Both the position numbers and the translations under genes were made by a program. Shown one piece after another: positions 11,974 to 60,312 of a stretch of DNA of 64,000 nt. Position 1 is the stretch's first letter. Each line of letters opens with the position of its first letter. The notes below the pieces were generated by a model that did no database searches, had not been told where the DNA came from, and worked only from the letters and a program-made list of their open reading frames with translations. The stretch is from Luteitalea sp. TBR-22 (lineage in GTDB: Bacteria; Acidobacteriota; Vicinamibacteria; Vicinamibacterales; Vicinamibacteraceae), in the NCBI RefSeq assembly GCF_016865485.1, contig NZ_AP024452.1, positions 5,230,501-5,294,500 of the forward strand. The letters are read 5' to 3'.

Positions 11974-12068
11974 GGCTTACGGCTCACGGCTGACAGGGGC
12001 TCAAGGCTCAGGGCTCAGGGCTCAGAGAGCTTTCTGGGTTCTGTCGACTGCCGACTGCCGACTGCCGG
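11974..12068. repeat. Heptad repeat locus A (GGCTNAC/GGCTCAG and CTGCCGA)
   Basis: Starting three bases after the TonB-receptor stop, seven heptads of GGCTNAN type occupy 11974-12025 with one 3-nt interruption; the last four are GGCTCAA and three GGCTCAG. After a spacer reading AGAGCTTTCTGGG, four further heptads of another word (CTGTCGA, CTGCCGA twice, CTGCCGG) fill 12041-12068. The second array overlaps the position expected for the -35 element of argG. The G3N4-like first array could form a partial G-quadruplex. Confidence 0.85.
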
Positions 12069-18388: not shown

Positions 18389-18525
18389 GGCTCAGGGCTC
18401 AGGGCTCAGGGCTCAGAGAGCATTCTGCACACCTGGTGGATGCTGTCCGAGCCTTGAGCCGCGAGCCCTGGGTCGTGAGCCGTGCCGCTCGAGCCCTGAG
18501 CCTCGAGCCTTGGGCCCTGAGCCTT
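18389..18525. repeat. Heptad repeat locus B (GGCTCAG array and opposing GAGCCNN array)
   Basis: Four perfect GGCTCAG units (18389-18416) are followed by a 32-nt spacer beginning AGAGCATTCTG, then eleven in-phase heptads of GAGCCNN type (18449-18525; words GAGCCTT, GAGCCGC, GAGCCCT, GGGTCGT and so on). The second array is approximately the reverse complement of the first, so the locus can form a long imperfect stem. It ends two bases before the hppA stop codon and fills the gap between hppA and the desulfurase-like gene, both on the minus strand. Confidence 0.88.
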
Positions 18526-22634: not shown

Positions 22635-22640
22635 GCGAAC

Positions 22641-22710
22641 GGGAGTCGGGAATCGGGAGTCGGGAATCGGGAATCGGGAATCGGGAGACGGGAGTCGGGA
22701 GTCGGGCGAC
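22641..22710. repeat. Heptad repeat locus D: ten GGGARTC units
   Basis: Ten consecutive 7-bp units (GGGAGTC, GGGAATC, GGGAGTC, GGGAATC three times, GGGAGAC, GGGAGTC twice, GGGCGAC) without register break, starting six bases after the stomatin-like gene. Every unit begins with GGG, so the plus strand contains ten G3 tracts separated by 4-nt loops: a strong G-quadruplex motif. The word is of the GGGNATC kind reported for Xanthomonas and Nostoc. Confidence 0.95.
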
Positions 22711-25258: not shown

Positions 25259-25345
25259 GCGAAAGTGGCGGAACTGGCAGACGCGCCGGACTTAGGATCC
25301 GGTGGCCGGAAGGCTGTGCGGGTTCGAGTCCCGCCTTTCGCACCA
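25259..25345 (+). tRNA. tRNA-Leu (anticodon UAG)
   Basis: An 87-nt gene with encoded CCA. The acceptor stem GCGAAAG pairs with CTTTCGC, discriminator A. The D-arm TGGCGGAACTGGCAGACGC is typical of leucine tRNA. The anticodon stem CCGGA/TCCGG encloses the loop CTTAGGA, giving anticodon TAG (25293-25295), which reads CUA and wobble CUN codons. A long class II variable arm and the T-arm GCGGG-TTCGAGT-CCCGC complete the cloverleaf. No convincing terminator follows before tig, 160 bp downstream on the same strand; a T6 run at about 25416 lacks a good preceding hairpin. Confidence 0.97.
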
Positions 25346-36250: not shown

Positions 36251-37570
36251 TCAGTCGTTCCACAACGGGGTCGTCGCAGGGACGCCCCGGGCGAGCTTCC
36301 GCTCCAGCCGCTCGAGCCGCCGGCTGAACTGCTCGCGCTCTCCCCTCCCGATCGCTTCTTCGATCCCCGCCACGGCATGCCGCCGCGCCTCCTCGAGCTG
36401 GCCGGCCCGGTGCTCGTGGTGGATGGCCAGCGCCTCCCGCGCCTCCCGCAGCACCTGTGGGCGTCCGCCCAGCTGCAGGACCAGCCGCCAGGCGCCTGCC
36501 GCCTCCTCGTATCGCCTCAGACGGCGCAGCAACCGCGCCAGTGCACGAGCCGAGGCGCGACGCACGTCGCGCGTCTGCCAATGGTCGTCGGCCGCGGCTC
36601 GATAGCAGGCCACGGCGGCCTCGTTCCAGCCGCCGCGCTCGTACAGCGCGCCCAGGCCGAAGGCGGTCGCGCCCGCCGGGGGTGACTCACGCCCGTCGCG
36701 CACGAGTCGCTGCGCGTGGGCCGTGAGTGCGGCCAGCGACAGCAGGTCGAGCCGGTTGTGCAGCAGCACGGGCTCGAGCAGCGCCGCCGGGCCGCCCCTG
36801 ACGAACTGGAAGTACCGGGCCGGGATCTCGAAGCCTCCCACGTCGCCGACCCGCCCGACGCCGAGCACCGATTCCTCGAGGTGCGTGAGGCGGCACGAAC
36901 GGTCGCCCTCCTCCGAGGCGCGCCACAGGCGACGCGCGGCGTGCAGCATGTCGAGGTGCGGGATGTCGCACACCACCTGCGGCACGCGCTGCATCTCGCC
37001 GCGCAGTTCCATGACCGGCACGTCGAACGTGCGGCCGTTGTAGGTCACCAGCACCGCGTCGTCGCGCAGGTACGCGTTCAGGGCGTGCAGCAGCGCGCGC
37101 TCGGCGGCGTAGGACGGCAACAGGAACTGCGTGGTGCGGAAGCCGTCCGGCGTCCACTCCCCGACGCCGGCCAGGAACGCCAGCATGCCGGCGCCGCCCG
37201 AGAGTCCGGTGGTCTCGAGGTCGAAGTACACCAGGCGCGAGCGGTCGCCGAGGGGGCGACCGGCGAGCAACGTCAGGGTCTCGTCGTTGCAGACCTCGCC
37301 GCAGGCCTCGACGCGCAGCCGTCCGTGGCTGCGATCGGCCTCGTGGAGGTGCTCCACGACGATGGTCGGGCCGTGCGCCGTCTCGACGAGACGCGCACCG
37401 TCGAGGCCGACGTCGGGGCCGTCAGGATGGGCGAGCCGCGGATCGACGGGCAGGCCATCGTCGTCGACGGGGGCGTAGGTGAGCTCGCGCACCGGCGCCG
37501 GGCTCGCCGCGCTGCCCGCCACGTGCCCGCGGGCGATCTCGCGCAGCCGTGAGAGCGAGGAGGACGCCAT
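36251..37570 (-). CDS. mrfB: DEDD exonuclease of the YprB/MrfB family
   Basis: A 439-residue protein. The central ribonuclease-H-like domain (about 125-290) shows the first acidic motif YFDLETTGLSGG, then VLVTYNGRTFDVPVM (motif II Asp) and LLHNRLDLLSLAAL (motif III Asp). A helical TPR-like C-terminus (about 300-435; LARLLRRLRRYEEAAGAWRLVLQ) follows. It matches B. subtilis YprB (MrfB), a metal-dependent exonuclease working with the helicase MrfA in removal of mitomycin C adducts and crosslinks. The helicase gene lies directly upstream on the same strand, six bases away. Confidence 0.85.
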   Translation of the reverse strand: MASSSLSRLREIARGHVAGSAASPAPVRELTYAPVDDDGLPVDPRLAHPDGPDVGLDGARLVETAHGPTIVVEHLHEADRSHGRLRVEACGEVCNDETLTLLAGRPLGDRSRLVYFDLETTGLSGGAGMLAFLAGVGEWTPDGFRTTQFLLPSYAAERALLHALNAYLRDDAVLVTYNGRTFDVPVMELRGEMQRVPQVVCDIPHLDMLHAARRLWRASEEGDRSCRLTHLEESVLGVGRVGDVGGFEIPARYFQFVRGGPAALLEPVLLHNRLDLLSLAALTAHAQRLVRDGRESPPAGATAFGLGALYERGGWNEAAVACYRAAADDHWQTRDVRRASARALARLLRRLRRYEEAAGAWRLVLQLGGRPQVLREAREALAIHHEHRAGQLEEARRHAVAGIEEAIGRGEREQFSRRLERLERKLARGVPATTPLWND

Positions 37571-43784: not shown

Positions 43785-43840
43785 GACTCCCGAGCCCCGA
43801 TTCCCGATTCCCGACTCCCGACTCCCGACTCCCGACTCCC
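43785..43840. repeat. Heptad repeat locus I: eight GACTCCC/GATTCCC units
   Basis: GACTCCC, GAGCCCC, GATTCCC twice, GACTCCC four times, in unbroken register, then GACC and the stop codon (CTA on this strand) of the short-chain dehydrogenase at 43845. Read on the minus strand this is GGGAGTC/GGGAATC beginning four bases after that gene's stop, so it has the same strand relation to the upstream gene as loci D and G. Confidence 0.95.
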
Positions 43841-43844
43841 GACC

Positions 43845-53354: not shown

Positions 53355-53358
53355 GGCC

Positions 53359-53462
53359 GGGCGCCGGGCACCGGGCACCGGGGGGCTGTCAGTCATGACT
53401 CATGACGCATGACCGACGTGACGCTCAACGTCAGACGTTAAACGTTAAACGTCAAACGTCAG
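53359..53462. repeat. Heptad repeat locus J: three different words in 104 bp
   Basis: GGGCGCC and two GGGCACC plus a G6 run (53359-53385) form a G-quadruplex motif. CATGACT, CATGACG, CATGACC follow (53394-53414). Then six units ACGCTCA, ACGTCAG, ACGTTAA, ACGTTAA, ACGTCAA, ACGTCAG (53421-53462). The last unit contains the stop codon of the minus-strand gene (TCA, 53459-53461). The first array starts four bases after the dioxygenase stop. Confidence 0.92.
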
Positions 53463-54322
53463 ATGGCCCCCATGCTCCTCAGGTACTCGAAGTAGGGCTC
53501 GGGCACGACCTTCCACTCGCCCTTGACCTTGCGTACGCGGAAGGGGATCTCGATGCTGCCCATCATGCCGACGAAGACGAGTTCGTCGGGCGAGGATCCG
53601 GCGGTGATGCGCGTGCCGCTCGGCATGCGCACCACTTCGCCGGGCCGGGCCGGCGCCAGGCCCATCTCCACGGCCAGCATCGCCACGTGGCCGCGATCGG
53701 CACCCGGCAGGTTGTTGTTCCGTGTCAGTTCCTCGACGTGCTCCGGCAGGTAGCTGAGCGCCTTCAGTGGTTCGGTCTCGTCGTTCATCACGTGGTACAG
53801 GAACCGCTTCACCAGCATCACCGGGGCGTCGTCGGGTGGCGGCGCCGAGGCCTGCTGGCGCTCGGCCACCCAATAGCGCGGATCGACGCGCCAGCCGTCG
53901 CGGGTCCGCACGACCGGCACCGGCACCAGCGAGCTGCCGTACTGCGTCACGTACACGATCCGCGTGCCCACAGGGGCCGCCGCGACGTCATCGACGGGCT
54001 CGCCCTCGAACAGCGGAGGGAGCTGTGACGAAAAGCGCACCCGCTCCAGTTGCTCCTCGATCCGGCGCAGGCCCTCCCCCGCAGGAGGCGCCGGCGGCAT
54101 CAGGACGTCGATGCCCTCGACCGGCAGCGTGGCCCTGACAAACGCGTCGCGTCGCCCGAGCACCATCGACGACAGGGCGTCGAAGGCGATCTTCTTCGGG
54201 TCGTCGGCCGCCGCAGCGCCCTTCGGCCACGTCGCCATCGCGATCACGAGCGCGATCAGCGCCCTACGCGTCGGTCGTACAGAGTTCCGCCAGAATGTCG
54301 GCTGCCCGGGCGCACTGGTCAC
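53459..54322 (-). CDS. Secreted protein of unknown function
   Basis: A 287-residue protein from GTG 54322. The N-terminus has a basic stretch and a hydrophobic core ([22 protein letters not shown]) consistent with a signal peptide; later starts would remove it. The body shows LLPPLFEGEPVDD-like and RIVYVTQYGSSLVPVPVVRTRDGWRVDPRYWV segments, a pattern of repeated strands reminiscent of periplasmic DUF4440/NTF2-like folds, but no family is assigned. It overlaps the 3' end of the threonine aldolase gene by 59 bp on the same strand, implying translational coupling. Its stop codon lies inside a heptad repeat. Confidence 0.65.
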   Translation of the reverse strand: MTSAPGQPTFWRNSVRPTRRALIALVIAMATWPKGAAAADDPKKIAFDALSSMVLGRRDAFVRATLPVEGIDVLMPPAPPAGEGLRRIEEQLERVRFSSQLPPLFEGEPVDDVAAAPVGTRIVYVTQYGSSLVPVPVVRTRDGWRVDPRYWVAERQQASAPPPDDAPVMLVKRFLYHVMNDETEPLKALSYLPEHVEELTRNNNLPGADRGHVAMLAVEMGLAPARPGEVVRMPSGTRITAGSSPDELVFVGMMGSIEIPFRVRKVKGEWKVVPEPYFEYLRSMGAI

Positions 54323-55298
54323 GCGTCACCTCCAGATGAGTGACAACGCGCAGCGTGCGCGGGCCGAACGCGATGAGGAGCACGCCCCGCTCGCGGGCCC
54401 GCGCAACGACCGTGGCGGCGTCGGGCGCGCCGGGCGAGAGGTGGAACATGACGATGTTGGTCTGGACCGTCGCCAGGTCGAGCCGCACGCCGGGCGACTG
54501 CGCGACCCGCTCGCCGATCAGCCGCGCGTGCGCGTGGTCGTCGACGAGCCGGGCATAGTGGTGCGCAAGCGCGTGGGTCGCCGCCGCGGCCAGCAGGCCG
54601 ACCTGGCGCATCGCCCCACCGAACATCCGACGGTAGCGGACGGCCCGGGCGATCACGTCGCGTGGACCGGCCAGCAGCGACCCAGCCGGCGCGCCCAGCC
54701 CCTTGCTCAAGGCCGCCCAGACGACGTCGAAGGGCGCGGCCACGGCGGCCGGCGGCACCCCGAGGGCGACGGCGGCGTTCCAGAGGCGGGCGCCGTCGAG
54801 CAGCGATGCGATGCCGTGCGCCCGCGCTGCCGCGCAGATCGCCTCTGCGTCGGCCAGAGGCACGACGATGCCGCCCGCCCGGTTGTGGGTGTTCTCCACC
54901 GCCACGAGCGTGGTCGGCGGGTACAGCATGTGGCCCTTCGGCTTGACCGCCGCAAGGAACTCGTCGGCCGAGAACCTGCCGGCCTGCCCGATCTCGGTCA
55001 GTTGCACCCCGGCGTTGGCTGCCGCTGCGCCGGTCTCGTGCCAGGCCAGGTGACTCTCCCGGCTCACGATCACATCGTCGCCCGGGCGCGTGAGCGTGCG
55101 GAGCGCCACCTGGTTGGCCATCGTCCCGGTGGGCAACCAGAGGGCCGCCTCCTTGCCGAGCAGCGCCGCGCCCTGCTCCTGCAGCGCGTTGATCGACGGG
55201 TCCTCGCCGAACTGGTCGTCGCCGACCGGCGCCGCTGCGATGGCCGCGCGCATCTGGGGCGTCGGCCTGGTCACTGTGTCGGAGCGGAGATCGATCAT
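54264..55298 (-). CDS. ltaE: Low-specificity threonine aldolase
   Basis: A 344-residue PLP enzyme that splits threonine or allo-threonine to glycine and acetaldehyde. The family opening [35 protein letters not shown], cofactor Asp168 ([11 protein letters not shown]) and Schiff-base Lys199 ([12 protein letters not shown]) are conserved. ATG 55298 is chosen because it gives this canonical N-terminus; the frame open upstream is repeat DNA. L- versus D-allo specificity cannot be read from sequence. The whole gap upstream to the DUF3500 gene is a heptad array. Confidence 0.93.
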
Positions 55299-55465
55299 CG
55301 GGGATGGGCCTTGGGCGCCTTGGGCCTTGGGCCTTGGGCCTTGGGCCTTGGGGCTTGGGGCTTGGGGCTTGGGGCTTGGGGCTTGGGGCTTGAGCCGTGA
55401 GCCCTGAGCCGTGAGCCCTGAGCCGTGAGCCGTGAGCCCTGAGCCCTGAGCCGTGAGCCGTGAGC
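55299..55465. repeat. Heptad repeat locus K: 20 units in continuous register, three words
   Basis: After a degenerate start, four GGGCCTT units (55322-55349), six GGGGCTT units (55350-55391) and ten GAGCCGT/GAGCCCT units (55392-55461) follow with no phase break: 140 bp of uninterrupted 7-bp periodicity. A partial unit then merges with the stop codon (CTA, 55466-55468) of the DUF3500 gene. The array fills the entire gap from the threonine aldolase ATG to that stop codon, leaving no ordinary leader or Shine-Dalgarno for the aldolase. The GGGGCTT and GGGCCTT blocks are strong G-quadruplex motifs on the plus strand. Confidence 0.96.
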
Positions 55466-56533
55466 CTAGTGCTTCACCGCCGCGAGGTGCTTGCGGAGTA
55501 CGTCGCCGCCGAAGTCGTGCTCGGGATCGCGCCACATGCTGTGGATGTGGTTGGCGTCGTTCTGGCTGTTGTCGTACTCGATCAACATCGTCGGGCCGTG
55601 CACGCGGTAGTAGTGCTTCTTGCCCACCTCGAGGCTACCGGCCCACGCGAAGTGCAGCTTGTCGAAACCGGCCTTTTCGATGCGCGCGAGTTGCGACTTG
55701 CGCTGCGCCTCGGGGAAGCGGTTGGCGTAGACGTCGATGAGCTTGCGCAGCTGCGCCTTCTGCGGCGCCGTGAGCGTGGCGGCGGCCACGCCGTCGAACT
55801 GCGCGATCTCGGCCTTCGGCTTGTTGGTGGTGACGATGTCGTTGGTCGTCTCGGGAGCGATGACCGCCTTGGCCTTCTGGTCGGCAGTGAAGAGCGCCAT
55901 CAGCGCACGCGCCTCGTCTTCCTCGGCGGCGAGAATGCGCAGGCCCGCGCTCGGCCCCGACAGCACCTTCGCGGGATTGGAGCCGAAGAACAGGGGCGCG
56001 ACGACGTCACCGTCCTTGCCGGCATGCGTGGCGTTCACCGAGAGGTGGTGTCCCTCGAAGCGCCAGGCCCACACGCCCTCGGCCGACGGCGTGCCGAAGA
56101 TGGCGGTGTAGTAGAGGCCCGGCTGCCGGCGCATGTAATTGGCCACGCCCTGGCCCTTCTCGATCTCGCGGAGGATGTCCTCGTGGGCGATGATCTTGCG
56201 CGCCGTCGCGTACCCGCTCTCGCTCAGGCCCGAACGCAACAGCGAGAACGCCTGGGCCTGCTGCGGCTCTGCCAGTTCCTCGAGCGGCACGCCGGCGCGG
56301 ACCATCGGCACGTAGTTCAACTGGGTGCGGGCTTCGTGCTCGAGCGGCAGCAGGGCCTTGTCGCGGGCGGGTCCGGACAGCGACGTGGCGAGCGCCGTGG
56401 CCGCCGCGGTGCTGCTGGTGGCCGCCGGCGCGGCGGCCTTCCGGTCCGACGCCGGTTGGGCGGTGGAAGGACGCGAGGCGACAGCCGCGGCGGCCGCGCC
56501 GAGGACGAAGGCGGAGAAGAGGATGGCGCGCAT
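55466..56533 (-). CDS. Secreted DUF3500 protein
   Basis: A 355-residue protein with a signal peptide (MRAILFSAFVLGAAAAAVASRPSTAQ) and an Ala/Ser-rich linker. The body matches DUF3500: LLPLEHEARTQLNYVPMVRAGVPLEEL, YYTAIFGTPSAEGVWAWRFEGHHLSVN, and near the C-terminus HFAWAGSLEVGKKHYYRVHGPTMLIEYDNSQNDANHIHSMWRD-type residues (about 305-345) with several His/Asp that could bind metal. No biochemical function is established for the family. It precedes the threonine aldolase on the same strand but is separated from it by 167 bp of heptad repeats. Confidence 0.88.
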   Translation of the reverse strand: MRAILFSAFVLGAAAAAVASRPSTAQPASDRKAAAPAATSSTAAATALATSLSGPARDKALLPLEHEARTQLNYVPMVRAGVPLEELAEPQQAQAFSLLRSGLSESGYATARKIIAHEDILREIEKGQGVANYMRRQPGLYYTAIFGTPSAEGVWAWRFEGHHLSVNATHAGKDGDVVAPLFFGSNPAKVLSGPSAGLRILAAEEDEARALMALFTADQKAKAVIAPETTNDIVTTNKPKAEIAQFDGVAAATLTAPQKAQLRKLIDVYANRFPEAQRKSQLARIEKAGFDKLHFAWAGSLEVGKKHYYRVHGPTMLIEYDNSQNDANHIHSMWRDPEHDFGGDVLRKHLAAVKH

Positions 56534-56564
56534 GGGGGTGGCGCGGATTCTACTGCGGCCGGAC

Positions 56565-56606
56565 GGGAATCGGGAGTCGGGAGTCGGGAGTCGGGAATCG
56601 GAAGTC
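56565..56606. repeat. Heptad repeat locus L: six GGGARTC units
   Basis: GGGAATC, GGGAGTC three times, GGGAATC, GGAAGTC in unbroken register, in the gap between the DUF3500 start and the cspA stop (both minus strand). Five complete G3 tracts give a G-quadruplex motif on the plus strand. Confidence 0.93.
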
Positions 56607-56636
56607 GGACGCGGGGCAGCACCTGCCGCAGCGAAT

Positions 56637-56698: not shown

Positions 56699-56911
56699 CT
56701 AGCGGCCCTGGCGGACAACGTTCTCGGCCGCCGGTCCCTTGGCGCCCTGGACGATGTCGAACTCGACGCGCTCACCCTCGACAAGGGTCTTGAAACCCGT
56801 GCCGGCGATGGCGCTGTGGTGCACGAAGCAATCCTTCTGGCCGCCCTCGGGCGTGATGAAGCCGAAGCCCTTGCTCTCGTTGAACCACTTGACGGTACCG
56901 GTAGTACGCAT
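56699..56911 (-). CDS. cspA: Cold-shock family RNA chaperone
   Basis: A 70-residue single-domain OB-fold protein. RNA-binding motifs are RNP1 KGFGFI and RNP2 DCFVHHSAI, with the surrounding [10 protein letters not shown] and GPAAENV conserved. ATG 56911 has GAGGAG seven bases upstream. Such proteins melt RNA secondary structure and may be cold-, growth- or stress-controlled; the regulation class cannot be told from sequence. A long structured leader and a candidate small-RNA unit lie upstream, and an intrinsic terminator follows the gene. Confidence 0.95.
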
Positions 56912-57220
56912 GTCGAACTCCTCGTTCGGTAATCGGAGCACCGCCATGCCACACGGACCGACCGACTACTGATTTTCTGTCGTGCAGACTCCCCCACGAC
57001 GGGGGCAATCGCTGCGCGGGAACGATTGCGGGCACTCAATGCAAAAGGCCTGGCGAACTTCCCAGGCCTCCTACAACCTTGGACTATCACGCCCCATGCA
57101 GGACGTGTCGCGCAAGGTGAATATACACGGGCCCGGCAGCGGGCGCAAGGGCCCCGATCCTGCCGAAGGTCAGGGGAGCTCCTGGAGGTCGTTCATCGAC
57201 TACCCGGCAGGGCCGCGGGC
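56912..57220 (-). other. 309-bp gap between the CoA-binding gene and cspA
   Basis: No coding frame looks real. Reading on the minus strand it contains a promoter-like pair (57148-57120), a T-tailed hairpin (57069-57041), and between that and cspA two further stems: an AATCG/CGATT stem (about 57006-57026) and CCCCC-GTCGT-GGGGG (about 56991-57005). The last two may belong to a structured cspA 5' leader, as known for E. coli cspA. Confidence 0.5.
57041..57113 (-). ncRNA. Candidate small RNA or attenuated leader upstream of cspA
   Basis: On the minus strand TTGCGC (57148-57143), a 17-nt spacer and TATATT (57125-57120) form a sigma-70-like promoter. About 45 nt downstream of the predicted start, AGGCCTGG (57069-57062) pairs with CCAGGCCT (57053-57046) and is followed by TTTTGC, an intrinsic terminator. 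The transcript would be about 73 nt with no evident reading frame. Alternatively the hairpin terminates the upstream CoA-binding gene, with the promoter unrelated. Confidence 0.4.
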
Positions 57221-60263: not shown

Positions 60264-60312
60264 GCGAATCGAGGATCGAGGATCGGGGATTGGGGATCGC
60301 GGATCGGGAGTT
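60264..60312. repeat. Heptad repeat locus N: GAGGATC/GGGGATC units
   Basis: GCGAATC, GAGGATC twice, GGGGATT, GGGGATC, GCGGATC, GGGAGTT, seven units in unbroken register, in the divergent gap between fumC and the DJ-1/PfpI gene. It is one of the few arrays between two gene starts; a relative of the GGGARTC family. Confidence 0.88.

Follow-up and report, generated by a model that had tools for sequence, protein, structure and literature searches.

Several tandem heptanucleotides reportedly occur together in one genome in Calothrix (the STRR of Mazel et al.), as they do in Luteitalea sp. TBR-22, and to our knowledge neither their polarity nor their orthologous sites have been analysed. Quadruplex-forming heptamers, GGGAATC and GGGGA(C/T)T, are described for Xanthomonas and Nostoc in the available sections of Rehm 2015 (PMC4692102), with 89–186 patterns per genome by that study's own definition. 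According to the same sections, 89–93% of the Xanthomonas heptamers are intergenic, few lie between divergent genes, the units are heterogeneous and some form inverted pairs; moreover, 83% of the Xcc repeats are found in the same context in Xac, and no preference for the leading or lagging strand is reported there (PMC4692102). In marine Beggiatoaceae, TAACTGA is likewise an abundant intergenic heptamer direct repeat, and some relatives with shorter gaps are without repeats; unlike TBR-22, with its many words and mixed arrays, these bacteria use a single exact word, and variants of it with one base changed seldom form repeats according to the available portion of the report (MacGregor 2015, PMC4679880). 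The tandem repeats of Borgs, as presented in the available part of PMC9879509, are comparable in that they evolve fast and that slippage is discussed for them, but each region has an essentially unique unit sequence and the carriers are archaeal extrachromosomal elements.

The repeats of TBR-22 appear to be of the known kind described in Rehm 2015, and what appears to be new is their fork polarity, together with the sharing of sites but not of words in the stretch compared with a relative (G001). In the open-licence PMC literature, we found no description of heptad repeats combining fork polarity with shared sites and unshared words. Measured against the available account of the Xanthomonas repeats, the array studied here is similar in having a tandem 7-bp unit in at least two copies, its class is many-copy and mostly intergenic in TBR-22, and the TBR-22 family CGGGAGT/CGGGAAT includes the same word and is unpolarised, as in Xanthomonas. 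The differences are that the array studied here contains neither GGGAATC nor GGGGA(C/T)T, whereas other TBR-22 arrays carry CGGGAAT; that TBR-22 has several word families, with strongly polar arrays of exact GGGCCTT and CGGGCAC; and that its sites are often shared with G001 while the words are not.

The array lies in a 64,000-nucleotide stretch of the TBR-22 chromosome (hereafter the window), between two genes of the minus strand:

54264..55298, minus strand: ltaE-like threonine aldolase, Pfam Beta_elim_lyase (threonine-aldolase family), starting MIDLRSDT
55306..55321, plus strand: left edge of the array, one GGGCCTT (55306-55312) and then GGGCGCCTT (55313-55321), from the sequence
55322..55349, plus strand: block A1, four GGGCCTT (AAGGCCC on the mRNA strand), by direct reading
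55350..55391, plus strand: block A2, six GGGGCTT (AAGCCCC on the mRNA strand), one substitution away from A1
55392..55461, plus strand: block B, ten GAGCC[CG]T (GGCTCA[CG] on the mRNA strand), by direct reading
55462..55468, plus strand: partial GAGCC unit entering the DUF3500 stop codon (TAG, minus strand, 55466-55468), from the sequence
55466..56533, minus strand: DUF3500 protein, with a Pfam DUF3500 match

The first-pass annotation had described 20 heptads in one register at 55322-55461, and direct reading of the four, six and ten units bears this out, with no insertion or deletion; position 6 of block B reads, unit by unit, G C G C G G C C G G. The array had also been taken for the whole intergenic region. 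The gap (55299-55465, 167 bp) is indeed nearly all array, but the array is slightly longer than was described, and TRF gives a single 7-mer array at 55305-55467 with 23 copies. GGGCGCCTT is a heptad with two extra bases, so that the array falls out of register at its left end. On the minus strand the order is DUF3500, array, ltaE, and the words of the mRNA strand run GGCTCA[CG] x10, AAGCCCC x6, AAGGCCC x4. Ten consecutive G3-4 tracts stand in register on the plus strand (55322-55391), at least four intact ones being the measure of quadruplex capability, so that by its letters this part could form a quadruplex; block B has no G-tracts on that strand. An Rfam scan of the window gave nothing above the gathering score except a tRNA at 25259-25342. 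An assembly artefact is judged an unlikely source of the array; according to the available text of PMC8852301, TBR-22 was sequenced with short paired, mate-pair and MinION long reads. The window array is an ordinary member locus of a known repeat kind.

As annotated at first pass, ltaE has no ordinary Shine-Dalgarno sequence, but the array does not follow as the reason: by eye, the ltaE orthologues of G001 and G002 lack one as well, and that of G002 has no array either. The missing sequence is thus not evidently caused by the array. Shine-Dalgarno-like 4-mers stand upstream of 406 of 1273 genes by our own gene calls, against 15% for random 20-mers. The ltaE reading frame stays open across the array; in-frame translation of the array was nevertheless rejected, as the mRNA strand of the gap holds no ATG, GTG or TTG and same-genus ltaE orthologues align from the same M/V/L-IDLRSDT start region.

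For the mRNA strand the prediction is a long hairpin with interruptions, whose apex lies close to the word change (-80.1 kcal/mol, z -4.5), and the opposite strand is predicted to reach -110.6 kcal/mol (z -5.6). On either strand the modelled fold is better than that of 200 out of 200 shuffles, which do not preserve the 7-base period, so that the z-scores overstate the effect. When four TGAGCCC elements were folded as DNA, none of 200 shuffles was as good for two of them, and 7 and 20 were for the others. Probably the array is a nearly neutral filler between two genes, which could fold as a long imperfect hairpin if transcribed, and the explanation that we prefer (below) needs no role for it in ltaE.

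Such a fold could be the trace of a snap-back event, which would make the array an imperfect inverted pair with the apex GGCT TG AGCC at the word change and 10 units on each side. In the minimum-energy folds the GGCTCAN block is predicted to pair with AAGCCCC/AAGGCCC around an apex near the word change, in agreement with such an origin. Inverted pairs are reported in 70 cases in Xanthomonas campestris in the available sections of Rehm 2015 (PMC4692102), and they exist in TBR-22 at L141 (7986-8100) and L152 (4379-4428), where TGACGTT-type arrays face the reverse complement AACGTCA, in one case with a central CAAGGCC array. However, the direct and the inverted distance between the two words are equal (3/7), sister arrays hold intermediate direct words, and inverted partners (at most one mismatch) account for 4 of 51 adjacent pairs in four genomes (1/15, 3/27, 0/7 and 0/2), against 6–17% under the null. 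A snap-back origin is therefore considered quite improbable. Inverted pairs as a general rule were rejected, adjacent blocks being no more complementary than random pairs.

Heptad arrays are a genome-wide class, with hundreds of them between the genes of TBR-22, and a period of 7 is far more common there than chance would give. When blocks were detected by lag in a first sample of 541.5 kb, lag 7 gave 65 blocks and lags 4–6 and 8–13 gave 0–8 each, while the 37 blocks at lag 14 are a harmonic of lag 7. A second, larger sample, which covered 1.72 Mb or 26.6% of the genome and combined stretches at even intervals with the window and the stretches next to it, held 190 heptad blocks, 168 of which are intergenic (<50% gene overlap, by our own gene calls). 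Seven word families, defined by at most one mismatch in any rotation and on either strand, account for 156 of the 190 blocks, a figure that is descriptive only, since the families were picked by eye from the first arrays; their sizes are CGGGAGT 39, GAGCCCT 33, GGGCCTT 21, TGACGTT 19, CGGCAGT 19, CGGGCAC 19 and CGGCGTT 6. Both neighbouring genes were known for 162 blocks. Convergent gaps, with 47 blocks for 15% of the gap length, are over-occupied and divergent gaps, with 24 for 31%, under-occupied, the other 91 blocks lying in aligned gaps (54%; chi-square p=7e-8, the blocks not being fully independent). The window itself contains further arrays:

11998..12067, plus strand: GGCTCAG and then CGACTGC arrays (lag-7 blocks)
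18389..18426, plus strand: four GGCTCAG units with the recurrent border AGAGCATTCT
22640..22706, plus strand: CGGGAGT/CGGGAAT array (TRF, lag-7 blocks)
43796..43843, plus strand: CCCGACT/CCCGATT array (lag-7 blocks)
53356..53461, plus strand: CCGGGCA-type and ACGTCAA-type arrays (lag-7 blocks)
56564..56609, plus strand: CGGGAGT/CGGGAAT array upstream of the DUF3500 gene
60268..60306, plus strand: ATCGAGG array

An ACGTCAA/ACGTTAA array occupies a convergent gap at 53427-53463 of the window. The array at 56564-56609 upstream of DUF3500 adjoins a cold-shock protein gene (56699-56947); Bacillus Csp is able to bind heptamer direct repeats according to the available portion of MacGregor 2015 (PMC4679880). 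The terminus region (~2.9-3.6 Mb) is poor in arrays, with 5.0 blocks per 100 kb compared to 7.5–15.6 in the other eight bins.

At first pass, the constant register had been attributed to gradual substitution under a constraint on spacing, or to copying from mixed templates, which may still apply. Gradual substitution finds support in intermediate words of sister arrays in the same genome and in a phase kept above chance. For example, the series GGGCCGT-GGGCCTT-GAGCCTT-GAGCCCT is found at 4892903, and at 6049547 and 4470772 the words GGGCCTT and GAGCCCT have GGGCCCT units between or among them. The constraint on spacing, in contrast, finds no support: bases were gained or lost at 5 of 12 sister junctions, a unit with two extra bases stands at the edge of the array itself, and slippage adds or removes whole 7-mers, so that phase is kept without any such constraint. 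GGGCCTT and GGGGCTT differ by one base, and a mutated unit multiplied by unit-wise slippage must stay in phase. It should be noted that GGGGCTT and GAGCCNT have 3/7 mismatches, so that the register across that change is weakly defined.

Fourteen composite GGGCCTT/GAGCCNT arrays were compared, five from the sample (window, L142, L275, L298 and L322) and nine found solely among 20 loci picked by blast with the window array as query. GGGCCTT precedes GAGCCNT on the same strand in all 14, the nine blast-found arrays being biased to this order; it does so in all five that were chosen independently of order (window included), and the other four alone give p=0.125. Seven of the 12 scorable junctions are in phase and the other five are offset by 2, 3, 4, 4 and 5; excluding the window array, 6 of 11 are in phase (p=0.002 vs 1/7). 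Moreover, among adjacent blocks at most 60 bp apart, whatever their words, 21 of 51 in four genomes are in the best-matching phase, against 10.7 expected with ties taken into account (p=0.0009). Near-identical words (at most one mismatch) are in phase in 8 of 15 cases (2.1 expected) and the others in 13 of 36 (8.6 expected). Phase is thus frequently, though not invariably, preserved, most visibly between similar words; this is what copying by whole units with an indel now and then would produce.

No close strains were present among the genomes searched, and the comparison was made with four same-genus genomes, whose ltaE is 78–83% identical. Three of the five genomes that keep the gene pair have an array in the ltaE-DUF3500 gap. 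G004 has a degenerate GGCTCAN array, and neither of the remaining two words occurs on that strand; in G001 the words differ, by eye GAGGACN with an opposite GTCCTCC arm. The G002 gap (22 bp) has no array, nor has G003, in which the genes abut or overlap. Other sequence lies upstream of ltaE in G011, G034 and G013, which are uninformative on the gap. The first-pass annotation had held that separate insertions of the word blocks in relatives would speak against its reading, and this is in part what G004 presents, with a GGCTCAN block and neither an AAGCCCC nor an AAGGCCC block; the blocks may therefore have separate histories. In another TBR-22 gap, at 5324822, 126 bp with a GTCGGCC block correspond to 72 bp without array in G001, -4 bp in G004 and 11 bp in G002; there, array-bearing DNA separates genes that abut in some relatives.

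The positions of arrays were compared across 112 orthologous adjacent gaps of TBR-22 and G001. Arrays were present in both genomes at 13 gaps, in TBR-22 only at 6, in G001 only at 7 and in neither at 86 (Fisher p=4e-8). Stricter thresholds gave, in the same order, 7, 6, 12, 87 and 6, 6, 10, 90 (p about 1e-3 and 2e-3), and gaps of at least 60 bp in both genomes gave 12, 4, 5, 37 (p=8e-6; 0.006 and 0.009 at the stricter thresholds). As controls of the detector, lags 5, 6, 9 and 10 gave 0–1 gaps per genome, and lag 8 gave 2 and 5, of which 2 were shared. At the 13 shared sites, the words of the two genomes resemble each other no more than those of shuffled partners do (distance 2.62 vs 2.67, P=0.45), a single pair, CCCGACT/CCCGAGT, being within one mismatch. 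This site-sharing result rests on one place, since 11 of the 13 shared sites fall within one region of 144 kb around the window, which accounts for 79 gaps (11 of them shared, 2 occupied in TBR-22 only and 5 in G001 only); the remaining 33 gaps comprise 2 shared, 4 and 2 unshared and 25 empty ones. The arrays of TBR-22 recur at 2 of 9 occupied gaps in G004 and 2 of 7 in G002, both multi-contig drafts in which repeats may be lost, and this low sharing counts against a general rule of shared sites. Of the 74 G001 blocks, 47 have words inside the seven TBR-22 families; for random words of similar composition the figure is 21%. The word sets are still somewhat species-specific, with 9.3% of cross-species pairs within one mismatch compared to 13.8% after label shuffling (P=0.0005).

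Coinciding sites with words no closer than shuffled ones, the large share of G001 words in TBR-22 families and a word pair that recurs in fixed order could all result from ectopic copying, with arrays serving as templates for one another: on stalling in one array, a fork would jump to a different array elsewhere and take over its word, and words from a common vocabulary would be exchanged at persisting sites; the GGGGCTT/GAGCCNT composites would then be joints of two templates. However, the shared sites are largely confined to the 144-kb region, no copied flanks were noticed by eye, a restricted vocabulary with independent mutation would scramble words too, and in-phase joints with intermediate words favour gradual change. 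We regard ectopic copying as possible, but only tentatively so.

The same coincidence of sites would fit a selected structural element, in which a hairpin or quadruplex of any word insulates genes, stabilises the upstream mRNA or ends transcription. The excess of arrays in convergent gaps (47/162 vs 15%), their deficit in divergent gaps (24/162 vs 31%) and the predicted folding of the window array beyond all 200 shuffles on both strands point in this direction as well. Yet G002 and G003 do without an array in the ltaE gap, arrays are absent from 7 of 9 (G004) and 5 of 7 (G002) of the gaps occupied in TBR-22, as far as multi-contig drafts tell, inverted pairs are not enriched overall, and the z-scores are overstated by period-breaking shuffles; selection for such an element thus appears unlikely.

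The chromosomes of TBR-22 and G001 both start at dnaA, and the GC skew of TBR-22 flips near 3.08 Mb, close to half-way, although the signal is noisy, with negative values over the initial 0.64 Mb and mixed ones past 5.16 Mb. For counts of exact words, places within 3 kb of one another were merged manually into single loci. Exact GGGCCTT arrays lie on the minus strand at 13 loci before 3.08 Mb, and on the plus strand at 13 and the minus strand at 2 beyond it, so that 26 of 28 loci have the word on lagging-strand sequence; the window array has the expected polarity. One-mismatch GGGCCTT occurs at further loci, and among the matches listed those at 960018 and 1355120 run against the polarity and those at 37363 and 348755 with it. 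CGGGCAC behaves in the same way, with 17 minus and 5 plus loci in the first half and 20 plus and 1 minus in the second (37 of 43 loci, the list giving 100 of the 119 places). As the list includes every one of the 39 reverse places, the 19 left over must, by the strand totals, be forward, consistent with the second half. TGAGCCC has 18 plus and 7 minus loci before 3.08 Mb, and 23 minus and 9 plus after it, that is, 41 of 57 on leading-strand sequence (p=0.001; 100 of 111 places listed), which corresponds to GGGCTCA on lagging-strand sequence. Of its exceptions, six have an exact GGGCCTT array of the same strand no more than 150 bp away, and for a seventh the distance to such an array is ~0.5 kb.

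In G001, CCGGGYA occurs at 108 places in forward and at 106 in reverse orientation. Of the first 100 places, which reach to 3.63 Mb, 93 are reverse and 7 forward, and subtraction leaves 101 forward and 13 reverse beyond, so that 194 of 214 are polar, a count that could shift by a few because 3.63 Mb is the last listed place and not a measured terminus. In this genome the skew still has a positive sign at 3.70 Mb, lies close to zero at 4.07 and 4.44 Mb, and has become negative at 4.81 Mb. Polarity is seen in two species for one pair of related words.

Polarity is weaker under a looser definition of the families than with exact words. On lagging-strand sequence, GGGCCTT then has 15 of 19 loci (p=0.02), CGGGCAC 11 of 14 (p=0.06), CGGCGTT 5 of 6 and CGGCAGT 9 of 14; on leading-strand sequence, GAGCCCT has 18 of 24 and TGACGTT 10 of 14. 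Over the whole sample, the GGG-bearing strand is lagging at 52 loci, leading at 23 and undecided at 38 (p=0.001). CGGGAGT/CGGGAAT, the commonest family, has no polarity (17 lagging and 14 leading loci, 3 ties), its orientation being mixed among the first 100 of 314 places; a simple rule of G-runs therefore fails.

A background skew of the words was rejected as the cause of polarity. Outside arrays, single CGGGCAC is found 484 times on leading and 556 times on lagging sequence (p=0.03), a slight lean the same way, and single GGGCCTT 116 and 108 times, respectively. Single words are thus almost unbiased and the polarity belongs to the arrays. The direction of transcription was rejected as well, the GGG strand being sense at 29 and antisense at 34 relative to flanking genes.

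Repeats are prone to expand when a structure forms in the nascent strand and to contract when it forms in the template, and of the two strands the lagging one is more exposed. The observed orientation places the G-run word on the nascent lagging strand, which would favour expansion; this fits GGGCCTT, CCGGGYA and GGGCTCA, but not CGGGART. We consider it fairly probable that the window array is an intergenic heptad array of a genome-wide class governed by unit-wise slippage, fork-oriented growth and fast word turnover, with its phase resulting from copying. Replication slippage would make arrays grow and shrink in steps of one 7-bp unit, and a single-base change in one unit, such as the C to G that would have produced GGGGCTT, would spread to its neighbours as an in-phase block. 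Arrays would grow more readily with their G-run strand as the nascent lagging strand, and this would fix the polarity. The larger change to GAGCCNT may have passed through GGGCCCT and GAGCCTT intermediates, or may have come from template switching between arrays; phase would be kept by unit-wise copying and not by selected spacing. Slippage alone does not explain the same words at unconnected sites, the coinciding sites with differing words or the constant order of GGGCCTT before GAGCCNT.

A broader reading, in which arrays in Luteitalea are written in the direction of the fork with a fixed 7-base step, at recurrent sites and from a shared vocabulary, sites and polarity being conserved and words not, is rather doubtful. 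Given that arrays are fork-polar in two species and single copies nearly unbiased, replication is likely their author. This bears on why seven bases are favoured as a repeat length across many bacterial genomes, for which the available portion of MacGregor 2015 (PMC4679880) relates the proposal that 7 nt reflects the contact with DNA polymerase. If shared sites with changed words were found genome-wide, they would amount to a natural experiment on repeat replacement.

REP/RAYT palindromes combine a conserved palindromic core with the RAYT transposase. A dispersed palindromic core, AGAATGCTYT..CTGAGCC, beside some TGAGCCC arrays of TBR-22 resembles them; a REP/RAYT element was rejected for the window array, in which no such core was seen, and the genome has two Y1_Tnp matches, just over the cut-off. 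AGAATGCTCTCTGAGCC (at most two mismatches) is found at 50 places in TBR-22, including 18410-18426 and 12019-12035 (reverse) of the window, compared to 0 for a backwards control. It is nearly absent from the relatives, with 1 place in G001, 1 in G004, 2 in G006 (control 1) and 0 in G002, G003, G005 and G011. Reading of the flanks of AGAATGCTCTCTGAGCC at 30 loci points to a palindromic element, in many cases with GGCTCAGAANGCAT as its other arm, and with TGAGCCC heptads outside.
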